This document shows positions 21,255 to 29,557 of a stretch of DNA of 64,000 nt, piece by piece. The stretch spans positions 62,001 to 126,000 of the forward strand of contig NZ_SMAA01000001.1 of assembly GCF_004341685.1 (NCBI RefSeq). Reading direction: 5' to 3'. Origin of the DNA: Pectinatus cerevisiiphilus (GTDB taxonomy: Bacteria; Bacillota; Negativicutes; Selenomonadales; Selenomonadaceae). The stretch's first letter is position 1, and each line of letters opens with the position of its first letter. The notes below the pieces were generated by a model. That model made no database searches. It saw nothing but the letters and a program-made list of their open reading frames with translations, and was not told where the DNA came from. Made by a program: the position numbers and the translations under genes.

Positions 21255-21686
21255 TTAAGCTTTGGCAAAAAGCATACCAAAATTATTACAAGCTTTTTTG
21301 TCTTTTTCATCTGGCGTACTATGTACAATTAGACCTTTGTCGTCAAATAAAGAAGCTTTATCATTTTTAACTCTTTCCTGCCAGGTACGCATCCATTCAC
21401 CGTCTCCCCAGTCATATGAACCAAACAGAGCAACAAGTTTATTAGCAAGATGCGGTTCGAGTTCTGAAAATACCGGTTCAAATTCATCTGCATCTAATTC
21501 TTCCGCGCCCATAGCGGAGCAGCCAAATGCTACTTTGGCAAATTCGTCTATGCGGTTTACGGGAAATTCAGAAACCTGGAACAGTTCACAATCACTGCCG
21601 GCCTGTTTTATTCCCTCAGCGATAGAATGCGCCATTTGTTCTGTGTTACCGGAGGAGCTCCAATAAATAATTGCGATTTTTCCCAT
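21255..21686 (-). CDS. Flavodoxin
   Basis: A 143-residue short-chain flavodoxin that carries electrons with FMN. The phosphate loop is WSSSGNTEQMA at residues 9-19; the FMN loops around CSAMGAEELD and FGSYDWGDGEWM are present. It is the second gene, 22 bases behind the DUF3793 gene, in an operon with two Fur boxes in its promoter. That fits the classic role of replacing iron-sulfur ferredoxin under iron limitation. Confidence 0.93.
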   Translation of the reverse strand: MGKIAIIYWSSSGNTEQMAHSIAEGIKQAGSDCELFQVSEFPVNRIDEFAKVAFGCSAMGAEELDADEFEPVFSELEPHLANKLVALFGSYDWGDGEWMRTWQERVKNDKASLFDDKGLIVHSTPDEKDKKACNNFGMLFAKA

Positions 21687-21707: not shown

Positions 21708-22280
21708 TTAGACAGCTGTTTCGATAATATTTTCGAGACTTTTACCTTCTGCCAAATAAGAACAAAAACGATTACAACATTTAGTATACTTGGAAAATAA
21801 TTTTTCAGCCGATTCAATATCCGAGTATACTTTCCATTGACCGCAGAATTTAAAATTTTGTCCGTTGTTTTTTATAAAACCTTTAACATCAAGGAGCGGA
21901 TATCCTAAAAAGAGACCTATCTCATGCGGGAACCCTTTTTGCAGATGCATACGTATTTTTAAGTAACGAAGACACGACAACACACTCGTAAAATCTTTGT
22001 AGCCATAATATCTCAGAAAAGCTTGATTGCACTCATCAGAGAGAATTTTAGCAAGATTTGCTTTGTGGTAGATAAGTAGAAGACGATAATTTTGTGATTC
22101 AGATACGGTAAACATAAAAACATTATTGCAACTTAGGCATTTTCTATATTTTTGCTGGATTTGCCTGAAATTATTTATTTTGTTTTTATTTATTGAAATT
22201 AAGTTGCCGGATTTTATTCCAGCCAATGTCGGGGCGCAATGAAACGCAAGTAAATGTTCAAATTGCTTAAAAGACTCCAT
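21708..22280 (-). CDS. DUF3793-family protein
   Basis: A 190-residue protein with the conserved pattern of DUF3793: LLAFHCAPTLAGIKSGNL at the start, a middle LLIYHKANL block, GFPHEIGLFLGYPL, and a C-terminal WKVYSDIESAEKLFSKYTKC. Four or more cysteines could bind metal or form thiols. Its biochemical role is unknown, but the family commonly sits beside flavodoxin in anaerobic Bacillota. ATG 22280 follows a GGAGGTG site; an upstream start would run through the Fur box. It is first in a Fur-controlled operon. Confidence 0.85.
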   Translation of the reverse strand: MESFKQFEHLLAFHCAPTLAGIKSGNLISINKNKINNFRQIQQKYRKCLSCNNVFMFTVSESQNYRLLLIYHKANLAKILSDECNQAFLRYYGYKDFTSVLSCLRYLKIRMHLQKGFPHEIGLFLGYPLLDVKGFIKNNGQNFKFCGQWKVYSDIESAEKLFSKYTKCCNRFCSYLAEGKSLENIIETAV

Positions 22281-22299
22281 ATATCCACCTCCAAATAGA

Positions 22300-22357
22300 T
22301 GATAATGATTTTCAATAGCAACAATCAAATTATAATATAAATGATAATTATTTTCAA
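22300..22357 (-). promoter_or_regulatory. Fur-controlled promoter with two Fur boxes
   Basis: Promoter TTGAAA (22357-22352), 17-base spacer, TATAAT (22334-22329). Two 7-1-7 Fur boxes flank it: TGATAAT-T-ATTTTCA at 22342-22356 overlapping the -35, and TGATAAT-G-ATTTTCA at 22300-22314 just downstream of the start site. Each differs from the TGATAAT-N-ATTATCA consensus by one base. Centres are 42 bp apart, about four helical turns. Iron-loaded Fur should block this promoter. Confidence 0.88.
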
Positions 22358-22771: not shown

Positions 22772-22953
22772 ATAAGAAGAAAGTTGATCTGACAAAATAG
22801 TGGATAATAATTGAAGATGTGGTAAAATCAGCTGGACTGCTTATTTTGTCTGTATTTTTCTGAGAAGATTTTAAAAATATATGAGAAAAGAAAAATAATA
22901 AGTTGTCCAGTTTTTTTATTTGCCGATACCAGTTCGGGGAAGGAAGGATCATT

Positions 22954-23436
22954 ATGCGAAAAATGTCTTTGCGATTGCCGTTGTTGTTAAGTATGGGCGG
23001 TACGATTTTTTCTTTGATGGGCAGGCGAGGTATGCATAAATATTGGGGAGTAATTTTTACATGTTTTTCGTTTTGGCATGTTTATCAATACAGAAGAAAA
23101 ATATACAAAGATTTTTATGATTTAATGGAGGAATGGAAAAAATTGGATATATTTTCGTCATTTTTGCCGAGCATGGATTTGGCATCAATCATTAAAAAAG
23201 CGGAAATTGCTTCATATATCCCAGGACGGATAAGAATTTACAGCAATCAACTGGTGAATAACGGCTATGCTGAAACCGTCCTGCAAAAAATGATTGGCAG
23301 TTATAAAGAAATTGATAATGTAAAAGTAAATATTGTTACGGGATCAGTACTCATAGAATACCGTCCAGAGGTACTTCGCAGAAATAAGGAGTTAGCTGAT
23401 ATTGAACGATATATAAAAAACAAGATAAATAGATAA
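22954..23436 (+). CDS. Membrane protein with HMA-like (HMA_2) domain
   Basis: A 160-residue protein. The N-terminal half has hydrophobic segments (about residues 7-45); the C-terminal half (about 75-155) has the ferredoxin-like HMA pattern IPGRIRIYSNQLVNN...GSYKEIDNVKVNIVTGSVLIEYRP. It lacks the metal-binding CxxC pair of canonical HMA domains. Read together with the next two genes it probably forms part of a P-type ATPase system. ATG 22954 is chosen because GGAAGGAAGG lies just upstream. The gene after it starts 14 bases later. Confidence 0.75.
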   Translation: MRKMSLRLPLLLSMGGTIFSLMGRRGMHKYWGVIFTCFSFWHVYQYRRKIYKDFYDLMEEWKKLDIFSSFLPSMDLASIIKKAEIASYIPGRIRIYSNQLVNNGYAETVLQKMIGSYKEIDNVKVNIVTGSVLIEYRPEVLRRNKELADIERYIKNKINR

Positions 23437-23450
23437 GAGGAGGTCTTTAT

Positions 23451-24026
23451 ATGTCATATGCTGCCGGAATGGCTTTAGGACTCAGCATCGGCCAGAAAGT
23501 TTTTGAGTTGTTTAACGATGGGGTAGCAAAATCCAAGAGTAAGGTTTGCGATGTTGTAGTATGTATGCATCTAGTTCATTCACTACCGGGGCGGCGCCGT
23601 TATGTTATAGCGGGTTTGAAAAACAATATAGGTCTTGCTGCCATATTGGAAAATTATTTATCACAATTGATATATGTAAAAAAAATAAGTGCAAATCCAA
23701 TTACCGGATCACTTTTATTAGAATATAATTGCGAAGAAGAAACAGTAGATGATTTAGTAAAATATTTATCAGACCGGGTTTTCGGAACAGTTGACTGTAT
23801 TAGTAGAATGGGAAATAAAGAATTGGCTGGTCTCGGTAGCCAGCTTTATGATTTTTTTGTTTATTGGAATAATTACTTGAAAGAAAAAACAACTAATGCC
23901 ATTGATTTTCGCTCTCTCACCGCCTTTATGTTTATAGTTGCGGGATTGCGTAAACTTGTGATGAGAAGACAGACGCCGGCTGCACCGCAATTATTATGGT
24001 GGGCGTTTTCTCTGCTTAGGAGATGA
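23451..24026 (+). CDS. HMA_2-like protein associated with the P-type ATPase
   Basis: A 191-residue protein. An HMA-like module (about residues 38-100) shows HSLPGRRRYVIAGLKNN then ISANPITGSLLLEYN, again without CxxC. A C-terminal hydrophobic stretch (about 155-185) could be membrane bound. AGGAGG precedes the ATG. It ends 8 bases before the ATPase gene. The repeated occurrence of this degenerate HMA fold in consecutive genes suggests it docks to the ATPase rather than chelating metal by cysteines. Confidence 0.75.
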   Translation: MSYAAGMALGLSIGQKVFELFNDGVAKSKSKVCDVVVCMHLVHSLPGRRRYVIAGLKNNIGLAAILENYLSQLIYVKKISANPITGSLLLEYNCEEETVDDLVKYLSDRVFGTVDCISRMGNKELAGLGSQLYDFFVYWNNYLKEKTTNAIDFRSLTAFMFIVAGLRKLVMRRQTPAAPQLLWWAFSLLRR

Positions 24027-24034
24027 AGATGTAG

Positions 24035-26188
24035 ATGAAAAAGTATTTTTTTCGACGGATAAGATTGTCCGTGCCAATGAACAAACGGATGCAGTTCCTT
24101 CTTTGTATGCGCTTGCAGACGGGTTCAGATATTGCTTTTGCCAACATAAAAAATGGTGTTCTGACGGTTTATTATGAAGGCAGATGGAAAAATAGCTGGT
24201 TAACTGATGCCATGAGCGGTAAAATTGTTGAAGCTGCCCCTAGAAAGAGCAAGGGAAAGAAAGGGAAGGGCAAAGAGGTTGCTGCGGCGGAAACCCAAAC
24301 TGAAAAATTTGGGCGGGAAGCTTTTGTTTCATTAGGTGGCTTTGTTTTCTTTCAAGTGCTGAAGAAATTTTATCCACAATTTTATGTTAGTATAAGATTA
24401 CTGCGCAGTGCTTTCGTTTTATTTTCTGCACGTAAGATTATCCATAAAGGATTCGACAGTATTGTCAAAGAAAGGGAAGCCAATGCGGATACACTTACGG
24501 CTACTGCCGTAATAGCTTCCGTTATCGCCGGCAAACCTGAATCCAGCTTGACTTTGTTGAGCTTGTCCAATGCGGCAGAAATGCTCACCAGTTATGCTGC
24601 GGAACGGGCGAGAAAGCATATTTCCGATTTGTTGAGCCTTGACCAGCAGTTTACCTGGCGGATAGATGCTGATGGTGTAGAACGCCGTACTGCTATAGAG
24701 GATATACGGCCTAACGATAAGATTTGCGTTCATTTAGGCGAAAAGGTATGTATTGATGGTATCGTAATAGAAGGCAGCGCTGCAGTCGACCAGGCATCTA
24801 TTACTGGTGAATCACAGCCGGCCATGAAGCATAAAAATTCACGTGTATATGCGGGCAGTGTGGTGCAAAATGGCGGACTTACCATTTTAGTTGAAAAAGT
24901 CGGCGATGATACCTCTATTGCCAGAATAGTCCATTTGGTAGAAGAAGCGCAGACACGCCGCGCACCTGTACAGAATTTTGCTGATCGTATGGCTAATATG
25001 CTTGTACCTGTTTCTTTTATAGGAGCGGCATTAGTATATGGGGTAACACGGGATTGGCAAAGAGTGATGAATTTGCTGTTTATTGATTTTTCCTGCGGGT
25101 TAAAATTGTCAACGGCTACGGCTGTTTCTGCGGCCATCGCCAGAGCTGCCCAACAGGGGATATTGGTCAAAGGCGGCAATTATATAGAAACACTTGCTGA
25201 TATTGATACCATAGTATTGGATAAGACAGGAACGATAACTTTAGGGATACCGCAGATTGCTGCTATCCATACTACAGGTGGAGTAAAAGAAAAAGAACTG
25301 CTGCTGTTAGCTGGATCTATAGAAAAACATTCACTGCATCCTTTGGCAGTAGCTATCCAGAAATATATTAAAGACCATAAATGGGAAGCACCACCGCATA
25401 TCAAGACAGAAACAGTAGTAGCCAGAGGTATAAAGGGTACAGTAGCTGATTTTGATGGCGGTAAAGGCGGAACGGTCATTGTGGGCAGCCGTAGGTTTAT
25501 GCGTGAAGAAAATGTTGTCAATTACAATGAGATAAATGACTTTAAACATACGCTTGGCTCTTCTGTAGTATATATTGCCCGTAATAATAAATTTATCGGC
25601 TGCATAGAAATAAATGATCCGATCAGGCCGCAGATGAAGCGGACGCTCAATCAGCTCAGACGCCGCGGCATTGATGAAATAGTAATGCTGACAGGCGATA
25701 CCGAGGAAGCTGCTAAAGAAGTGGCTTTGAAAATGGATCTTGATTCTTACTACGCAGAAGTATTACCGGAAGATAAGGCGGATATTGTTCGGCGCTTACA
25801 GAAGAATGGACGTGTCCTGATGGTCGGCGACGGCATCAATGATGCACCGGCACTTTCTTTTGCTGACATTGGCGTTGCCCTTGGCGGACGGCGGACAGAT
25901 ATTGCTGTTGAATCATCTGATATAACGATAAATTCGGATGACCCGTCTAAACTTATGGAAATAACGCAAATTGGCGATGATACCATGAATATGATCAGAC
26001 AGAATTTTACGGCCACGATCACATTAAATTCTGTTGCAATGCTACTAGGTGCACTGGGGCGGATTAATCCACTTATTGCAGCTGTAATCCATAATGCAGC
26101 TACACTGGCAGTTGTTTTAAACAGCGGCAGAATTTTAATTCCACCGCAAAAAGGAATATTACCGATTGGTAATAGAAAGATAAAATAA
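24035..26188 (+). CDS. P1B-like heavy-metal P-type ATPase lacking a CPx motif
   Basis: A 717-residue ATP-driven transporter. A degenerate HMA-like N-terminus (about 1-60) and a lysine-rich linker precede eight predicted helices in P1B order. The actuator TGES is at 257-260, the phosphorylated Asp396 in DKTGT, the P1B-specific HP dipeptide at 435-436, and GDGIND at 598-603; the last helices carry INPLIAAVIHNAATLAVVLNS as in P1B pumps. In the ion-binding helix the expected CPC/CPx/SPC is replaced by SCG (353-355), so the metal cannot be assigned. It closes the three-gene operon with its own terminator. Confidence 0.9.
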   Translation: MKKYFFRRIRLSVPMNKRMQFLLCMRLQTGSDIAFANIKNGVLTVYYEGRWKNSWLTDAMSGKIVEAAPRKSKGKKGKGKEVAAAETQTEKFGREAFVSLGGFVFFQVLKKFYPQFYVSIRLLRSAFVLFSARKIIHKGFDSIVKEREANADTLTATAVIASVIAGKPESSLTLLSLSNAAEMLTSYAAERARKHISDLLSLDQQFTWRIDADGVERRTAIEDIRPNDKICVHLGEKVCIDGIVIEGSAAVDQASITGESQPAMKHKNSRVYAGSVVQNGGLTILVEKVGDDTSIARIVHLVEEAQTRRAPVQNFADRMANMLVPVSFIGAALVYGVTRDWQRVMNLLFIDFSCGLKLSTATAVSAAIARAAQQGILVKGGNYIETLADIDTIVLDKTGTITLGIPQIAAIHTTGGVKEKELLLLAGSIEKHSLHPLAVAIQKYIKDHKWEAPPHIKTETVVARGIKGTVADFDGGKGGTVIVGSRRFMREENVVNYNEINDFKHTLGSSVVYIARNNKFIGCIEINDPIRPQMKRTLNQLRRRGIDEIVMLTGDTEEAAKEVALKMDLDSYYAEVLPEDKADIVRRLQKNGRVLMVGDGINDAPALSFADIGVALGGRRTDIAVESSDITINSDDPSKLMEITQIGDDTMNMIRQNFTATITLNSVAMLLGALGRINPLIAAVIHNAATLAVVLNSGRILIPPQKGILPIGNRKIK

Positions 26189-26209
26189 AAATTATTTTGT
26201 CAAATTTTA

Positions 26210-26241
26210 AAAACGCAGTATATTTTATGCTGCGTTTTTTT
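26210..26241 (+). terminator. Terminator of the P-type ATPase operon
   Basis: A 9-bp stem (AAAACGCAG 26210-26218 with CTGCGTTTT 26230-26238) ending in a T run. It separates the operon from the AT-rich DnaA-box region. Confidence 0.85.
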
Positions 26242-26280
26242 GTTTGCAAAAAATAGCTCATATAGTGTATTTAATTGAAC

Positions 26281-26713
26281 TTATCCACAATGTTATGCAC
26301 ATTTTTGTTGATAAGTTAATAATAATGGGGACGAATGTACGTGAATTTTTTTAAAATAATTAATAGAAAAATGATAAAAAGTCAAATATAACTTATGCAC
26401 AAAGTTATACACATCCTGTGGATAAAATAGATTACATATTAAATCAGTCATAAATCGAAAAATCTTTATAAGACAAGTAAAAAACATAGATTATGAAGCA
26501 GAAAAATCATTTGTTATTTATTCACAGTACTATGTGAATAAAATAATTAAAAATTTTTTATGGATATAGAAAAATTTGTAAAACGTTAATATAAAAAAAT
26601 AAAATTCCGCAAAAAAAACACATTTTTAGAATAAAATATAAAAAATGAGTCATATATTGATTAAATATACTTTTAAATAACTATGCACGTACTGAAAATA
26701 TAGTTGTTGATAA
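26281..26713. other. DnaA-box cluster: candidate replication origin or DnaA-titration locus
   Basis: Nine DnaA-box-like 9-mers. Perfect TTATCCACA: 26281-26289 (+) and 26417-26425 (-). One-mismatch boxes: TTATGCACA 26293 (+) and 26393 (+); TTATACACA 26405 (+); TTATTCACA 26518 (+) and its mirror 26533 (-); TTATCAACA 26306 (-) and 26705 (-). Starts at 26281/26293 and 26393/26405/26417 are 12 bases apart. The downstream flank is 15-20% GC in the lines I counted and rich in A and T tracts, as an unwinding element would be. The whole 26242-26950 stretch has no gene. No dnaA, dnaN, gyrB or parAB lies in the window. Confidence 0.7.
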
Positions 26714-26743
26714 TTTGTGGCAAAAGTTAAAAGAAAATATTAC

Positions 26744-26758
26744 AGATAATAATTATCT
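26744..26758. promoter_or_regulatory. 7-1-7 Fur/PerR-type inverted repeat upstream of rubrerythrin
   Basis: AGATAAT-A-ATTATCT is a perfect 7-1-7 inverted repeat of the form bound by Fur-superfamily repressors. It lies about 200 bases before the rubrerythrin ATG. Given the peroxide-reducing product, PerR is the likelier partner, but the distance is large and no convincing promoter was seen beside it. Confidence 0.4.
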
Positions 26759-26964
26759 TTTAGTATAAAAAACTAAGGGAAAATGAATATCTACAATAAA
26801 AAGAATATAGATGAGAAAAATTGAGAATTATGAATAAAAACATATAAAAAACACTTAATATGGAAGTTTTAAAAATATTAAATACTAACTATAATAGGCA
26901 CATAGAGAAAATACAGCTGCCGAACAAGCTGGATAATAGTTACATATAATTGGAGGAATTTTTT

Positions 26965-27510
26965 ATGAAGAAATGGGTTTGCAGTGTTTGTGGATATGTA
27001 TTTGAAGGAGAAAAACCACCAGTTCAGTGTCCTATATGTAAAGCACCTGCTTCTAAATTTGTTGAACAGGCAGGAGATTTAGTATTTGCTGCAGAACATC
27101 GCGTTGGTATAGCAAAAGGTGTTGACGAACGTGTAGTAGAAGGACTGCGCCAGAATTTTAATGGTGAATGTTCTGAAGTAGGTATGTATCTTGCTATGAG
27201 TAGAGTTGCTGAACGCGAAGGTTATCCTGAAATATCGGAAGCCTACAAGCGTTATGCTTTTGAAGAAGCTGAACATGCGTCTAAGTTTGCTGAATTACTC
27301 GGTGAAGTACTGACAGACAGCACCAAAAAGAATTTGGAAATGCGTGTTGCTGCTGAACATGGTGCATGTCAGGGTAAGCTTGATTTAGCAAAATTGGCTA
27401 AGGAATTAGGCCTCGACGCTATCCACGATACTGTACATGAAATGGCTAAAGATGAAGCACGTCATGGTTGCGGATTCAATGGCTTGCTCAGACACTATTT
27501 CGGTAAATAA
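26965..27510 (+). CDS. Rubrerythrin, reverse-domain type (rubredoxin first)
   Basis: A 181-residue non-heme iron protein. An N-terminal rubredoxin-like site ([20 protein letters not shown], residues 5-24) precedes a four-helix ferritin-like domain whose diiron ligands lie in [27 protein letters not shown] and [10 protein letters not shown]. Classical rubrerythrins have the order reversed; this layout matches the reverse rubrerythrins of clostridia, which act as NADH-linked peroxide (and oxygen) reductases through a reductase partner. GGAGG lies 8 bases before ATG 26965; a TTG 15 bases earlier overlaps that site. It has its own strong terminator. Confidence 0.93.
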
Positions 27511-27554
27511 TTTTAGGATAAAATAATTTTGCCATTTATGAAACTCTTATATAA

Positions 27555-27606
27555 AAAAGAAAAGCTGTGTGCCTAAGGATGGGCACACAGCTTTTCTTTT
27601 TTTATT
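27555..27606 (+). terminator. Strong bidirectional terminator after rubrerythrin
   Basis: A 19-bp perfect stem (27555-27573 with 27582-27600) with an 8-base loop and T runs on both strands. It stops the rubrerythrin transcript and can also catch the ABC exporter operon coming from the right. Confidence 0.93.
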
Positions 27607-27796
27607 GGGGTGATTTTATATATACATTAAGGGGTAACCTGTTTATTATAGGGAACACGGTATATTGTTTTAGCCTACCCTAGGGAAATTACGCTCACAA
27701 TTTATATATGAAAATAAATGGGTCTAATGGATAGCAAGTGGCTTTAATTACTGGTATAGCGATAGGCTGCATATAAAGCATCGGTAAAAAATGATT

Positions 27797-29557
27797 TTAA
27801 TCAGCGCTTTCGACAGACCCGTTTTCCTGGGCGAATTGGCTATTGTAAAGTTTTGCATAATAGCCATTTTTTTTCAATAATTCTTCATGTTTACCGCATT
27901 CGACAACGTGTCCCTGATCCATGACAATTATTTCATCCGCATTGCGGATGGTCGATAAGCGATGCGCGATGATGAAACTTGTACGTCCCTGCATCATTTT
28001 TAAAAAAGCTTTTTGGATACGCAGCTCTGTACGTGTATCAATGTTGCTGGTTGCTTCGTCTAAGATGAGTATAGGTGGGTCTATCATCATAACGCGGGCA
28101 ATGGTGAGAAGCTGTTTTTGACCTTGCGAGAGGTTACCACCGGCATCCGTTATTATGGTGTCATATCCTTGTGGTAAGCGGCGGATAAAGCTGTGCGCAT
28201 CTGAGGCCTTAGCAGCGGCTATTATTTGTTCCTCTGTTGCCTCAGGCATACCATAGGCTATATTTTCACGAATGCTGCCTGTAAATAACCAGGTGTCCTG
28301 TAATACCATGCCGAAGTTGCGGCGCAATTCATCGCGGGAAAGGTCGGTGATGTTTTTACCATCTATCAATATACGGCCTTCATCTAGTTCGTAAAAACGC
28401 ATTAAAAGGTTGACAAGTGTTGTCTTGCCTGCGCCGGTACGCCCTGCGATAGCTATTTTTTTCCCTGGGGCTACAGTAAGGTTAAAATCTTTTATCAAAG
28501 GACGGTTTTGTTCGTAGGCAAAGCTGACATGGTCAAAGACAATATGTCCTTTGAGCTGAAGTGGAACAGGCGAAGCTGGTTTGTCCGCCTCGCTTGGGAG
28601 ATCCAAAAGATAAAAAATACGTTTGGCTGAAGCAGCGGCACTTTGCAACTGTGTAAAAACTGCGGTGATATCGTTGAAGGGTTTGGCAAAGAGACTCGAA
28701 TAGATGAGGAAACTGGCTATATCACCTACGGTTATCTGCCCCATTATGGTCAGAACGCTGCCGCTGACACCGATCACGGCATAGGTTATATTGTTGACAA
28801 GGCGTGTTGACGGGTTAGTGAGAGAACCAAAAAATTGCGCGCGGACACCTTTTTCATACAGTAATTGGTTTAAGGCTTTGAATTTGGCAAAAGATCTATC
28901 TTCACAGGTAAATGCCTTGATGACATTTTGGCCGGCGATGCTTTCTTCGGCATAACCGTTCAGTAGGCCTAGATAACGAGCCTGCGCTTTAAATAAGTTT
29001 TGCGTCTTTTTGGTGATAAAACGAGCCATAAAATATGTTCCGACTGCGGAGAGAAAGACAACAATTGTCATTTTGGGGCTTATATAAAGCATGAAACCTA
29101 TAGCTCCGAAGATAGTGACTATACCGGTGAGGAGGTTGGCCATGCCTTGAACCATACCATCGGCAATGGTATCAATGTCATTGATAAAGCGGCTGACGAT
29201 ATCACCATGTGAATTGTGGTCGTAAAAACTTACGGGTAATTTGTTGATTTTAGTGAATAACTGATGGCGCAGTTTATTGGCAGTTTTATATGAGATTTCA
29301 TTGGTAAAATATGTTAAAGTCCAGACAAAAAAACTATTCAAAATGTAAATTAGTGATAATAATTTTAAGATGTCAATGACCATGGCGAAATTAACCATGC
29401 CTGGCCCAACCATGGTATCAATGCTGCGGCCTATGTATAAAGGACCGAGCAGGCTGGCAATGACGCTTATAAGTGCCGAAACCAGTGAAAAAGTAAGATA
29501 GCCGGGATAACAGGTAATGTAACTGACGCAGCGCGATACAGGCCGACTGATTTTCAT
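27797..29557 (-). CDS. ABC exporter subunit (canonical Walker B)
   Basis: A 586-residue half transporter: six membrane helices (about residues 15-300) followed by an ATPase domain. Walker A is AGRTGAGKTTLV, Walker B ILILDEATSNID with the catalytic glutamate, and the signature reads LSQGQ instead of LSGGQ. It overlaps its partner gene by 4 bases (ATGA). Together they form a heterodimeric type IV exporter of the BmrCD/TM287-288 kind, usually exporting drugs or lipophilic compounds. The substrate is unknown. Confidence 0.93.
   Translation of the reverse strand: MKISRPVSRCVSYITCYPGYLTFSLVSALISVIASLLGPLYIGRSIDTMVGPGMVNFAMVIDILKLLSLIYILNSFFVWTLTYFTNEISYKTANKLRHQLFTKINKLPVSFYDHNSHGDIVSRFINDIDTIADGMVQGMANLLTGIVTIFGAIGFMLYISPKMTIVVFLSAVGTYFMARFITKKTQNLFKAQARYLGLLNGYAEESIAGQNVIKAFTCEDRSFAKFKALNQLLYEKGVRAQFFGSLTNPSTRLVNNITYAVIGVSGSVLTIMGQITVGDIASFLIYSSLFAKPFNDITAVFTQLQSAAASAKRIFYLLDLPSEADKPASPVPLQLKGHIVFDHVSFAYEQNRPLIKDFNLTVAPGKKIAIAGRTGAGKTTLVNLLMRFYELDEGRILIDGKNITDLSRDELRRNFGMVLQDTWLFTGSIRENIAYGMPEATEEQIIAAAKASDAHSFIRRLPQGYDTIITDAGGNLSQGQKQLLTIARVMMIDPPILILDEATSNIDTRTELRIQKAFLKMMQGRTSFIIAHRLSTIRNADEIIVMDQGHVVECGKHEELLKKNGYYAKLYNSQFAQENGSVESAD

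Follow-up and report, generated by a model that had tools for sequence, protein, structure and literature searches.

In Bacillus subtilis, removal of six DnaA-box clusters lying outside oriC leads to early initiation of replication, according to the available parts of two reviews (PMC5295017, PMC13220808), and the accessible text of PMC5742627 reports likewise for B. subtilis and Streptomyces. A contrary judgement, that no B. subtilis clusters have significant roles, is found in the available part of one review (PMC5295017). In Escherichia coli, DnaA binds in vivo mainly to pairs of boxes 2-3 bp apart (PMC11317965, in its accessible part), and DnaA boxes are concentrated near oriC, a distribution suiting titration (PMC12371093, as excerpted). 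How initiation is timed by chromosomal DnaA sites outside E. coli is an open question. Among the full-text matches listed by our literature search, with most subscription papers outside its scope, we found no prior report of the clusters described below, either for Negativicutes, Selenomonadaceae and named genera or among work on box clusters in Firmicutes and on helical phasing.

Here we analyzed a stretch of 64,000 nucleotides (the window; C1:62001-126000, where C1 is a 261-kb contig making up about one tenth of a 2.63-Mb draft genome of 47 contigs) and compared it with four congeners, G001-G004, giving five species in all, and with a sister genus, G010. The window carries a DnaA-box array in excess over chance, which is conserved in one gene neighbourhood and has sister clusters, and its boxes follow a spacing rule seen across the class.

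The box array and the likely origin at dnaA

A preliminary description of this DNA had listed nine DnaA boxes in 433 bp (26281-26713), and all nine are found where it placed them. It called two of them perfect; two do have the strict form TTATCCACA, but seven, not two, are exact boxes, that is, match TTATNCACA (26281+, 26293+, 26393+, 26405+, 26417-, 26518+ and 26533-), and the other two are variant boxes, TTATCAACA (26306- and 26705-). The 12-base spacings that it gave for 26281/26293 and 26393/26405/26417 are exact. The features of the site and its surroundings are as follows.

21255-21686: flavodoxin gene, beside the DUF3793 gene
21708-22328, minus strand: DUF3793 gene, direct left neighbour of the cluster in G001, G003 and G004
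22903-26188, plus strand: heavy-metal operon (HMA_2, HMA_2 and P-type ATPase genes) between DUF3793 and the cluster, absent there in G001, G003 and G004
26281-26314, plus strand: three-box module 1, with TTATCCACA at 26281+, TTATGCACA at 26293+ and a convergent TTATCAACA at 26306-; pitches 12/13
26393-26425, plus strand: three-box module 2, with TTATGCACA at 26393+, TTATACACA at 26405+ and a convergent TTATCCACA at 26417-; pitches 12/12
26518-26541, no strand assigned: convergent DnaA-box pair, TTATTCACA at 26518+ and 26533-
26542-26940, no strand assigned: AT-rich spacer from the box array to the rubrerythrin leader
26705-26713, minus strand: lone variant DnaA box TTATCAACA
26890: TATAAT, aligned in all five species
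26965-27510, plus strand: rubrerythrin gene, right-hand neighbour of the cluster in all five species

The intergenic region as a whole is 785 bp long with 21% GC (23% over 26281-26541, 20% over 26542-26940). It contains seven exact boxes, whereas 2000 dinucleotide-preserving shuffles averaged 0.084 and held at most 3; a repeat with 500 shuffles averaged 0.072, and none of them attained seven, in line with the earlier claim of a density far above chance. Boxes are also mildly in excess over the whole genome (196 versus 117 for the reversed pattern). The site thus shows what marks an extra-oriC cluster, namely dense boxes outside oriC beyond chance. No structured RNA was found at 25000-28500 of the window (0 Rfam matches at the gathering threshold).

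Dense DnaA boxes beside AT-rich DNA, together with a three-box module resembling the one upstream of dnaA, could be taken for a secondary, ancestral or relocated replication origin, and the preliminary description had put origin readings forward, although it found no dnaA, dnaN, gyrB or mnmG nearby. The dnaA gene does lie outside the window, but just 11 kb past its left edge (ORF at C1:49566-50975, some 38 kb to the left of the cluster); dnaN adjoins it, and mnmG is at C1:43237-45111. Locating dnaA was one check that had been proposed and cumulative GC skew another: computed on C1 only, in 5-kb steps, the skew reaches its minimum near 50 kb, at dnaA, and rises through the cluster without a turn, so that the switch on C1 sits at dnaA and not at the site.

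Between dnaA and dnaN, a TTATCAACA box, the same variant as the lone box at 26705, is followed by a GC-rich spacer and, on the other strand, by TA(A/G)-like triplets, an arrangement aligned in 6/6 genomes; the consensus and role of this DnaA-trio are taken from the available parts of PMC5742627 and PMC7561715. All six triplets fit in G004 and G010, and three of six in the present genome. The trio at C1:51154-51179 has CG-containing triplets at three of six positions in the present genome and G002, versus pure TA(A/G) in G004 and G010. When up to four mismatches were allowed, this unwinding motif had a single match in C1, between dnaA and dnaN, and none within the AT-rich spacer at 26542-26940; the site therefore has the box array of an oriC and not its unwinding system of a box, a GC-rich spacer and a DnaA-trio. 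The places are less well told apart when trio triplets following boxes are simply counted (2-3 of six at the site, 3-6 of six at dnaA-dnaN with three in the present genome, and four of six at the upstream cluster in G003). Upstream of dnaA there is a tandem pair with a convergent third box TTATCAACA, at pitches 12/11.

Because the skew minimum, dnaA and the unwinding motif coincide there, the origin is likely bipartite and sited at dnaA, as judged from one contig. The cluster is itself unlikely to be a replication origin, since the C1 skew does not turn there and the unwinding motif is missing, and we consider it extremely improbable that it represents a secondary, ancestral or relocated one.

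Conservation in the genus and the sister clusters

Boxes are kept at the site in all four congeners. The numbers of exact boxes, and of boxes including TTATCAACA, are 7 and 9 in the present genome, 5 and 6 in G002, 3 and 5 in G003, 8 and 12 in G004, and 1 and 3 in G001, where the one exact box was reached in 38 of 500 shuffles and is not beyond chance alone. Module 1 has a counterpart in G004 (C1:1314150, 1314161 and 1314174 of that genome; pitches 11/13). Module 2 forms a separate conserved block, with 92% identity over 39 bp in G002 and 84% over 38 bp in G004, and its boxes have decayed in G003. The cluster lies about 41 kb from the dnaA start in G002 and about 54 kb in G004; in G003 it is inverted together with its flanking genes relative to dnaA, at 29 kb from it, and in G001 dnaA and the cluster are on separate contigs.

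The boxes stay in place although the left neighbour differs among the congeners. To the left of the cluster in G001, G003 and G004 come DUF3793, then flavodoxin and a chemotaxis gene, the same genes that are found further left in the window. The long left operons running toward the element, as the preliminary description put it, include the heavy-metal ATPase operon, which sits between the cluster and DUF3793, the direct neighbour of the cluster in three of four congeners. The ATPase is also to the left of the cluster in G002, with two ORFs of 300 and 262 aa intervening, the first of which may be an AraC-type regulator.

Loss of the boxes in close relatives had been named beforehand as one result that would speak against the proposed reading of the element. 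They are kept in four of four congeners, in reduced form in G001, and no exact box stands beside rubrerythrin in the sister genus G010. Nor was any exact box found at 23 rubrerythrin loci of other genera (2.3-3.6 kb read), one of which has a TTATCAACA box; the cluster site is thus lineage-specific.

Since rubrerythrin is the right-hand neighbour in all five species and DnaA is a known transcription factor (PMC4447404, in its available part), the cluster could put transcription of rubrerythrin, or of the ATPase operon, under DnaA control and so couple oxidative or metal stress to the cell cycle. However, 163-372 bp separate the aligned TATAAT from the end of the last exact box upstream of it, depending on the species (349 bp in the window, and 177 bp for the last variant box), and besides the 23 box-poor loci, 80 further rubrerythrin loci, several with little upstream DNA (29 exact boxes in 806 kb), include none with three exact boxes within 1 kb. 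The sister clusters described below adjoin unrelated genes and one lies between convergent genes, so we regard such control as quite unlikely. Rubrerythrin as a general DnaA target was set aside on account of the same loci of other genera (23 + 80). Named relatives among those nearest to the rubrerythrin are from Selenomonadaceae UBA3796 (83%), Megamonas sp. UBA1796 (81%) and Selenomonas montiformis (78%). The present genome belongs to the family Selenomonadaceae, in the class Negativicutes. In the rubrerythrin leader (26880-26964), a CAGCT...AGCTGG stretch is clear in the present genome and G002.

Besides the two oriC halves, C1 carries three sister clusters, which bring the extra-oriC clusters to four in all, one about 8 kb upstream of dnaA and three at about 38, 168 and 208 kb on its downstream side; the one at 38 kb is the cluster beside rubrerythrin.

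C1:41331-41591: sister cluster about 8 kb upstream, between a gene with an AICARFT/IMPCHase domain and an unassigned gene next to rsmG
C1:218037-218286: sister cluster 168 kb downstream, after a DAK2/FakA-like gene
C1:257739-258048: sister cluster 208 kb downstream, between Nramp and MgtC, with two of its five boxes inside the Nramp gene

All four clusters have boxes in matching gene neighbourhoods in five of five species. In the three genomes with dnaA on the same contig, the sisters are found about 8 kb upstream and at 161-178 and 193-209 kb downstream (178 and 209 kb in G002, 161 and 193 kb in G004). We tested 31 locus-by-species regions, 30 of them in the genus and one the dnaA-dnaN region of G010. 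When TTATCAACA was included, the observed count was reached in 0 of 500 shuffles at every one of them; with exact boxes only, it was reached at two, this cluster in G001 (one box, 38/500) and the Nramp/MgtC cluster in G004 (two boxes, 1/500). In the present genome, tandem or convergent pairs of exact boxes no more than 30 bp apart are confined to C1 save for one pair on C9, the genome-wide lists being complete for these two orientations; divergent pairs were searched on C1 alone, where there is one, within the 218-kb cluster. The ~8-kb-upstream cluster is also present in genera g17 and g21 (L178, L179, L181, L182), where its gene neighbourhood is unchanged and the pitch is 33 to 34 bp.

The site is accordingly one of several near-oriC clusters kept in relatives, with its reduction in G001 and with some pairs elsewhere in G001, G002 and G004. 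An additional cluster in G001 sits close to the end of a contig (L155, G001:C31:33471-33742; three exact and one variant box in ~270 bp); its context gave no match to C1. Stray pairs are found on C6 of G002 (one) and at 469676 and 560806 in G004 (two, isolated). In two other families, closely spaced pairs occur as far from dnaA as 764 kb (G040) and 1-2 Mb (G029), so that we state origin proximity, which is clear in the genus, for the genus and not for the class.

The preliminary description had offered, as its alternative to an origin, a site that titrates or regulates DnaA, and this has gained from the boxes kept in place in the congeners, if fewer in G001, and from the three syntenic sister clusters around the origin. 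That the clusters of the present genome are grouped around the origin and keep their positions would also suit a chromosome-organising or segregation site, at which DnaA bound to origin-proximal clusters ties the region to oriC and titration is secondary; we hold this to be very unlikely. The clusters occur in convergent, divergent and tandem contexts and adjoin unrelated genes, which fits DnaA accounting better than gene regulation.

Three-box geometry across the class

Helical phase matters at E. coli oriC. We searched 300 genomes of the class for a box, 3 bp, a second box, N(0-30) and a convergent box, corresponding to third-box pitches of 9-39, with exact boxes, so that modules containing variant boxes were missed. 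The pattern gave 105 matches in 74 of the 300 genomes, and the reversed pattern gave none in the same genomes. All 105 fall into three pitch classes, 11-14 (61 matches), 21-23 (32) and 33-35 (12), corresponding to about one, two or three helical turns, and no match among them has a pitch of 9-10, 15-20, 24-32 or 36-39. Probabilities computed for this grouping under a uniform model and by a Rayleigh test are post hoc and take no account of common descent. After collapsing, 41 lineage-by-pitch units were left, again all within the three classes.

A DnaA-family search covered 38 of the 74 genomes with matches and had a hit in 36 of them. On shared contigs, at least 16 genomes have a pitch-11/-12 module no more than about 1 kb from dnaA, the pitch-33/-34 modules of G134, G148 and G024 are 8-9 kb from the gene and the pitch-35 modules of G103 and G115 about 10-14 kb. 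Pitch-22 modules are found at 77 kb (G066), 157 kb (G043), 409 kb (G028) and ~210 and 304 kb (G040), and the one in G267 is 2.8 Mb from dnaA along the contig, a distance that holds if the contig is linear. Many other modules, those of pitch 13 in genus g16 among them, come from contigs that lack dnaA. Two genomes of family f15 each have a couple of strong DnaA-domain genes, separated by about 3 kb and adjoined by three-box modules (G103:C4:311922 and 314875; G115:C4:585920 and 588924).

The two far clusters of the genus use pitches 12/22; one box is degenerate in the FakA-side module of G004, and at Nramp/MgtC several modules contain TTATCAACA and that of G003 has one box more. We considered and rejected orthology between the genus clusters and the 22-pitch modules found ectopically in other families, and set aside the orientation of the genes beside these modules because the flanks are short: in the comparison, for which 30 of the 105 matches became loci with about 1.5 kb on each side, no flanking gene matched the far-cluster neighbours (tblastn against C1 proteins), and weak hits were to other genes only. 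What appears to be new here is the tandem pair at 12-bp pitch combined with a convergent third box under a class-wide spacing rule.

A tandem pair with a convergent box is also the core topology of E. coli DARS1 and DARS2, in which, according to the accessible text of PMC5742627, box I is opposite boxes II and III and the spacing is equal in both sites; we measured 12 and 14 bp in both cores. The cluster might therefore be a DARS-like reactivation site, where DnaA-ADP would assemble head-to-head on convergent boxes, lose ADP and be recharged, promoting initiation. The modules in the window do have three boxes with one opposite the other two, but at 12/13 and 12/12 they are 1-2 bp off the DARS spacing, and the same topology at 12/11 upstream of dnaA indicates that it is not specific to reactivation. 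In addition, E. coli DARS2 requires IHF and Fis, as stated in the available part of the review PMC5742627. We think reactivation unlikely here. A wider proposal, in which Negativicutes would time initiation by extra-oriC three-box modules whose convergent third box is fixed at a distance of roughly one, two or three turns, and whose DARS-core topology may actively remodel DnaA by nucleotide exchange or hydrolysis beyond titration, is offered tentatively, and we find it rather doubtful.

A proposed DnaA sink and known systems

We consider that the array is probably an extra-oriC cluster that would bind DnaA in the cell, lower the amount free for the true origin and so restrain initiation. Because it is near oriC, such a cluster would be copied soon after initiation, and the doubled sites would take up DnaA and guard against re-initiation. 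With its boxes 3 bp apart, each tandem pair is probably occupied by two adjacent DnaA molecules, to which the third box, convergent and on about the same face of the helix, would add another. The data are most simply read as titration by clusters that replicate early; DARS-like remodelling is the main rival, and some of the clusters could act on neighbouring genes instead.

Other regulators of DnaA were searched for as well. YabA was not found in seven of seven genomes, while the control matched in B. subtilis and Lactococcus lactis. The two PF00308 (DnaA ATPase) hits of the present genome other than DnaA are IstB transposition ATPases beside transposase-like ORFs, so there is no Hda candidate among the PF00308 hits. 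Four extra-oriC clusters at fixed places in five species would thus offer a countable and deletable set of sites in a lineage without detected YabA (seven genomes), and the sharp helical spacing rule for the three-box module, at oriC and at ectopic sites, provides a precise geometry for testing.

The DnaA-box clusters of B. subtilis are likewise multi-box arrays outside oriC, several in number and the strongest mostly intergenic, in a Firmicute whose bipartite origin flanks dnaA (PMC4447404 and PMC5295017, in their available parts). They occupy other loci, however, and the strong sites are widely spread (sda at 2.62 Mb, gcp at 0.63 Mb; PMC4447404, as excerpted), whereas the four clusters here lie within about -8 to +209 kb; the YabA found in the B. 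subtilis control was not detected in the seven genomes searched. E. coli datA is also a non-coding DnaA-box cluster near oriC, which restrains initiation and whose gene dosage matters (accessible text of PMC5742627 and PMC5295017). It works via IHF-dependent hydrolysis of DnaA-ATP. The DARS1/DARS2 core shares the tandem pair at 12 bp and the one convergent box, with a convergent pitch of 14 versus 12 and 13 here. The module upstream of dnaA in the same genome again has a 12-bp tandem pair and a convergent box (12/11), but is part of the likely bipartite origin with its unwinding motif, which the window cluster lacks. The "double DnaA box" sites of E. coli, preferred by DnaA in vivo, have boxes 3 bp apart as do the tandem pairs here (PMC11317965, in its available part); the modules described here differ from the definition of those sites in having a convergent third box.
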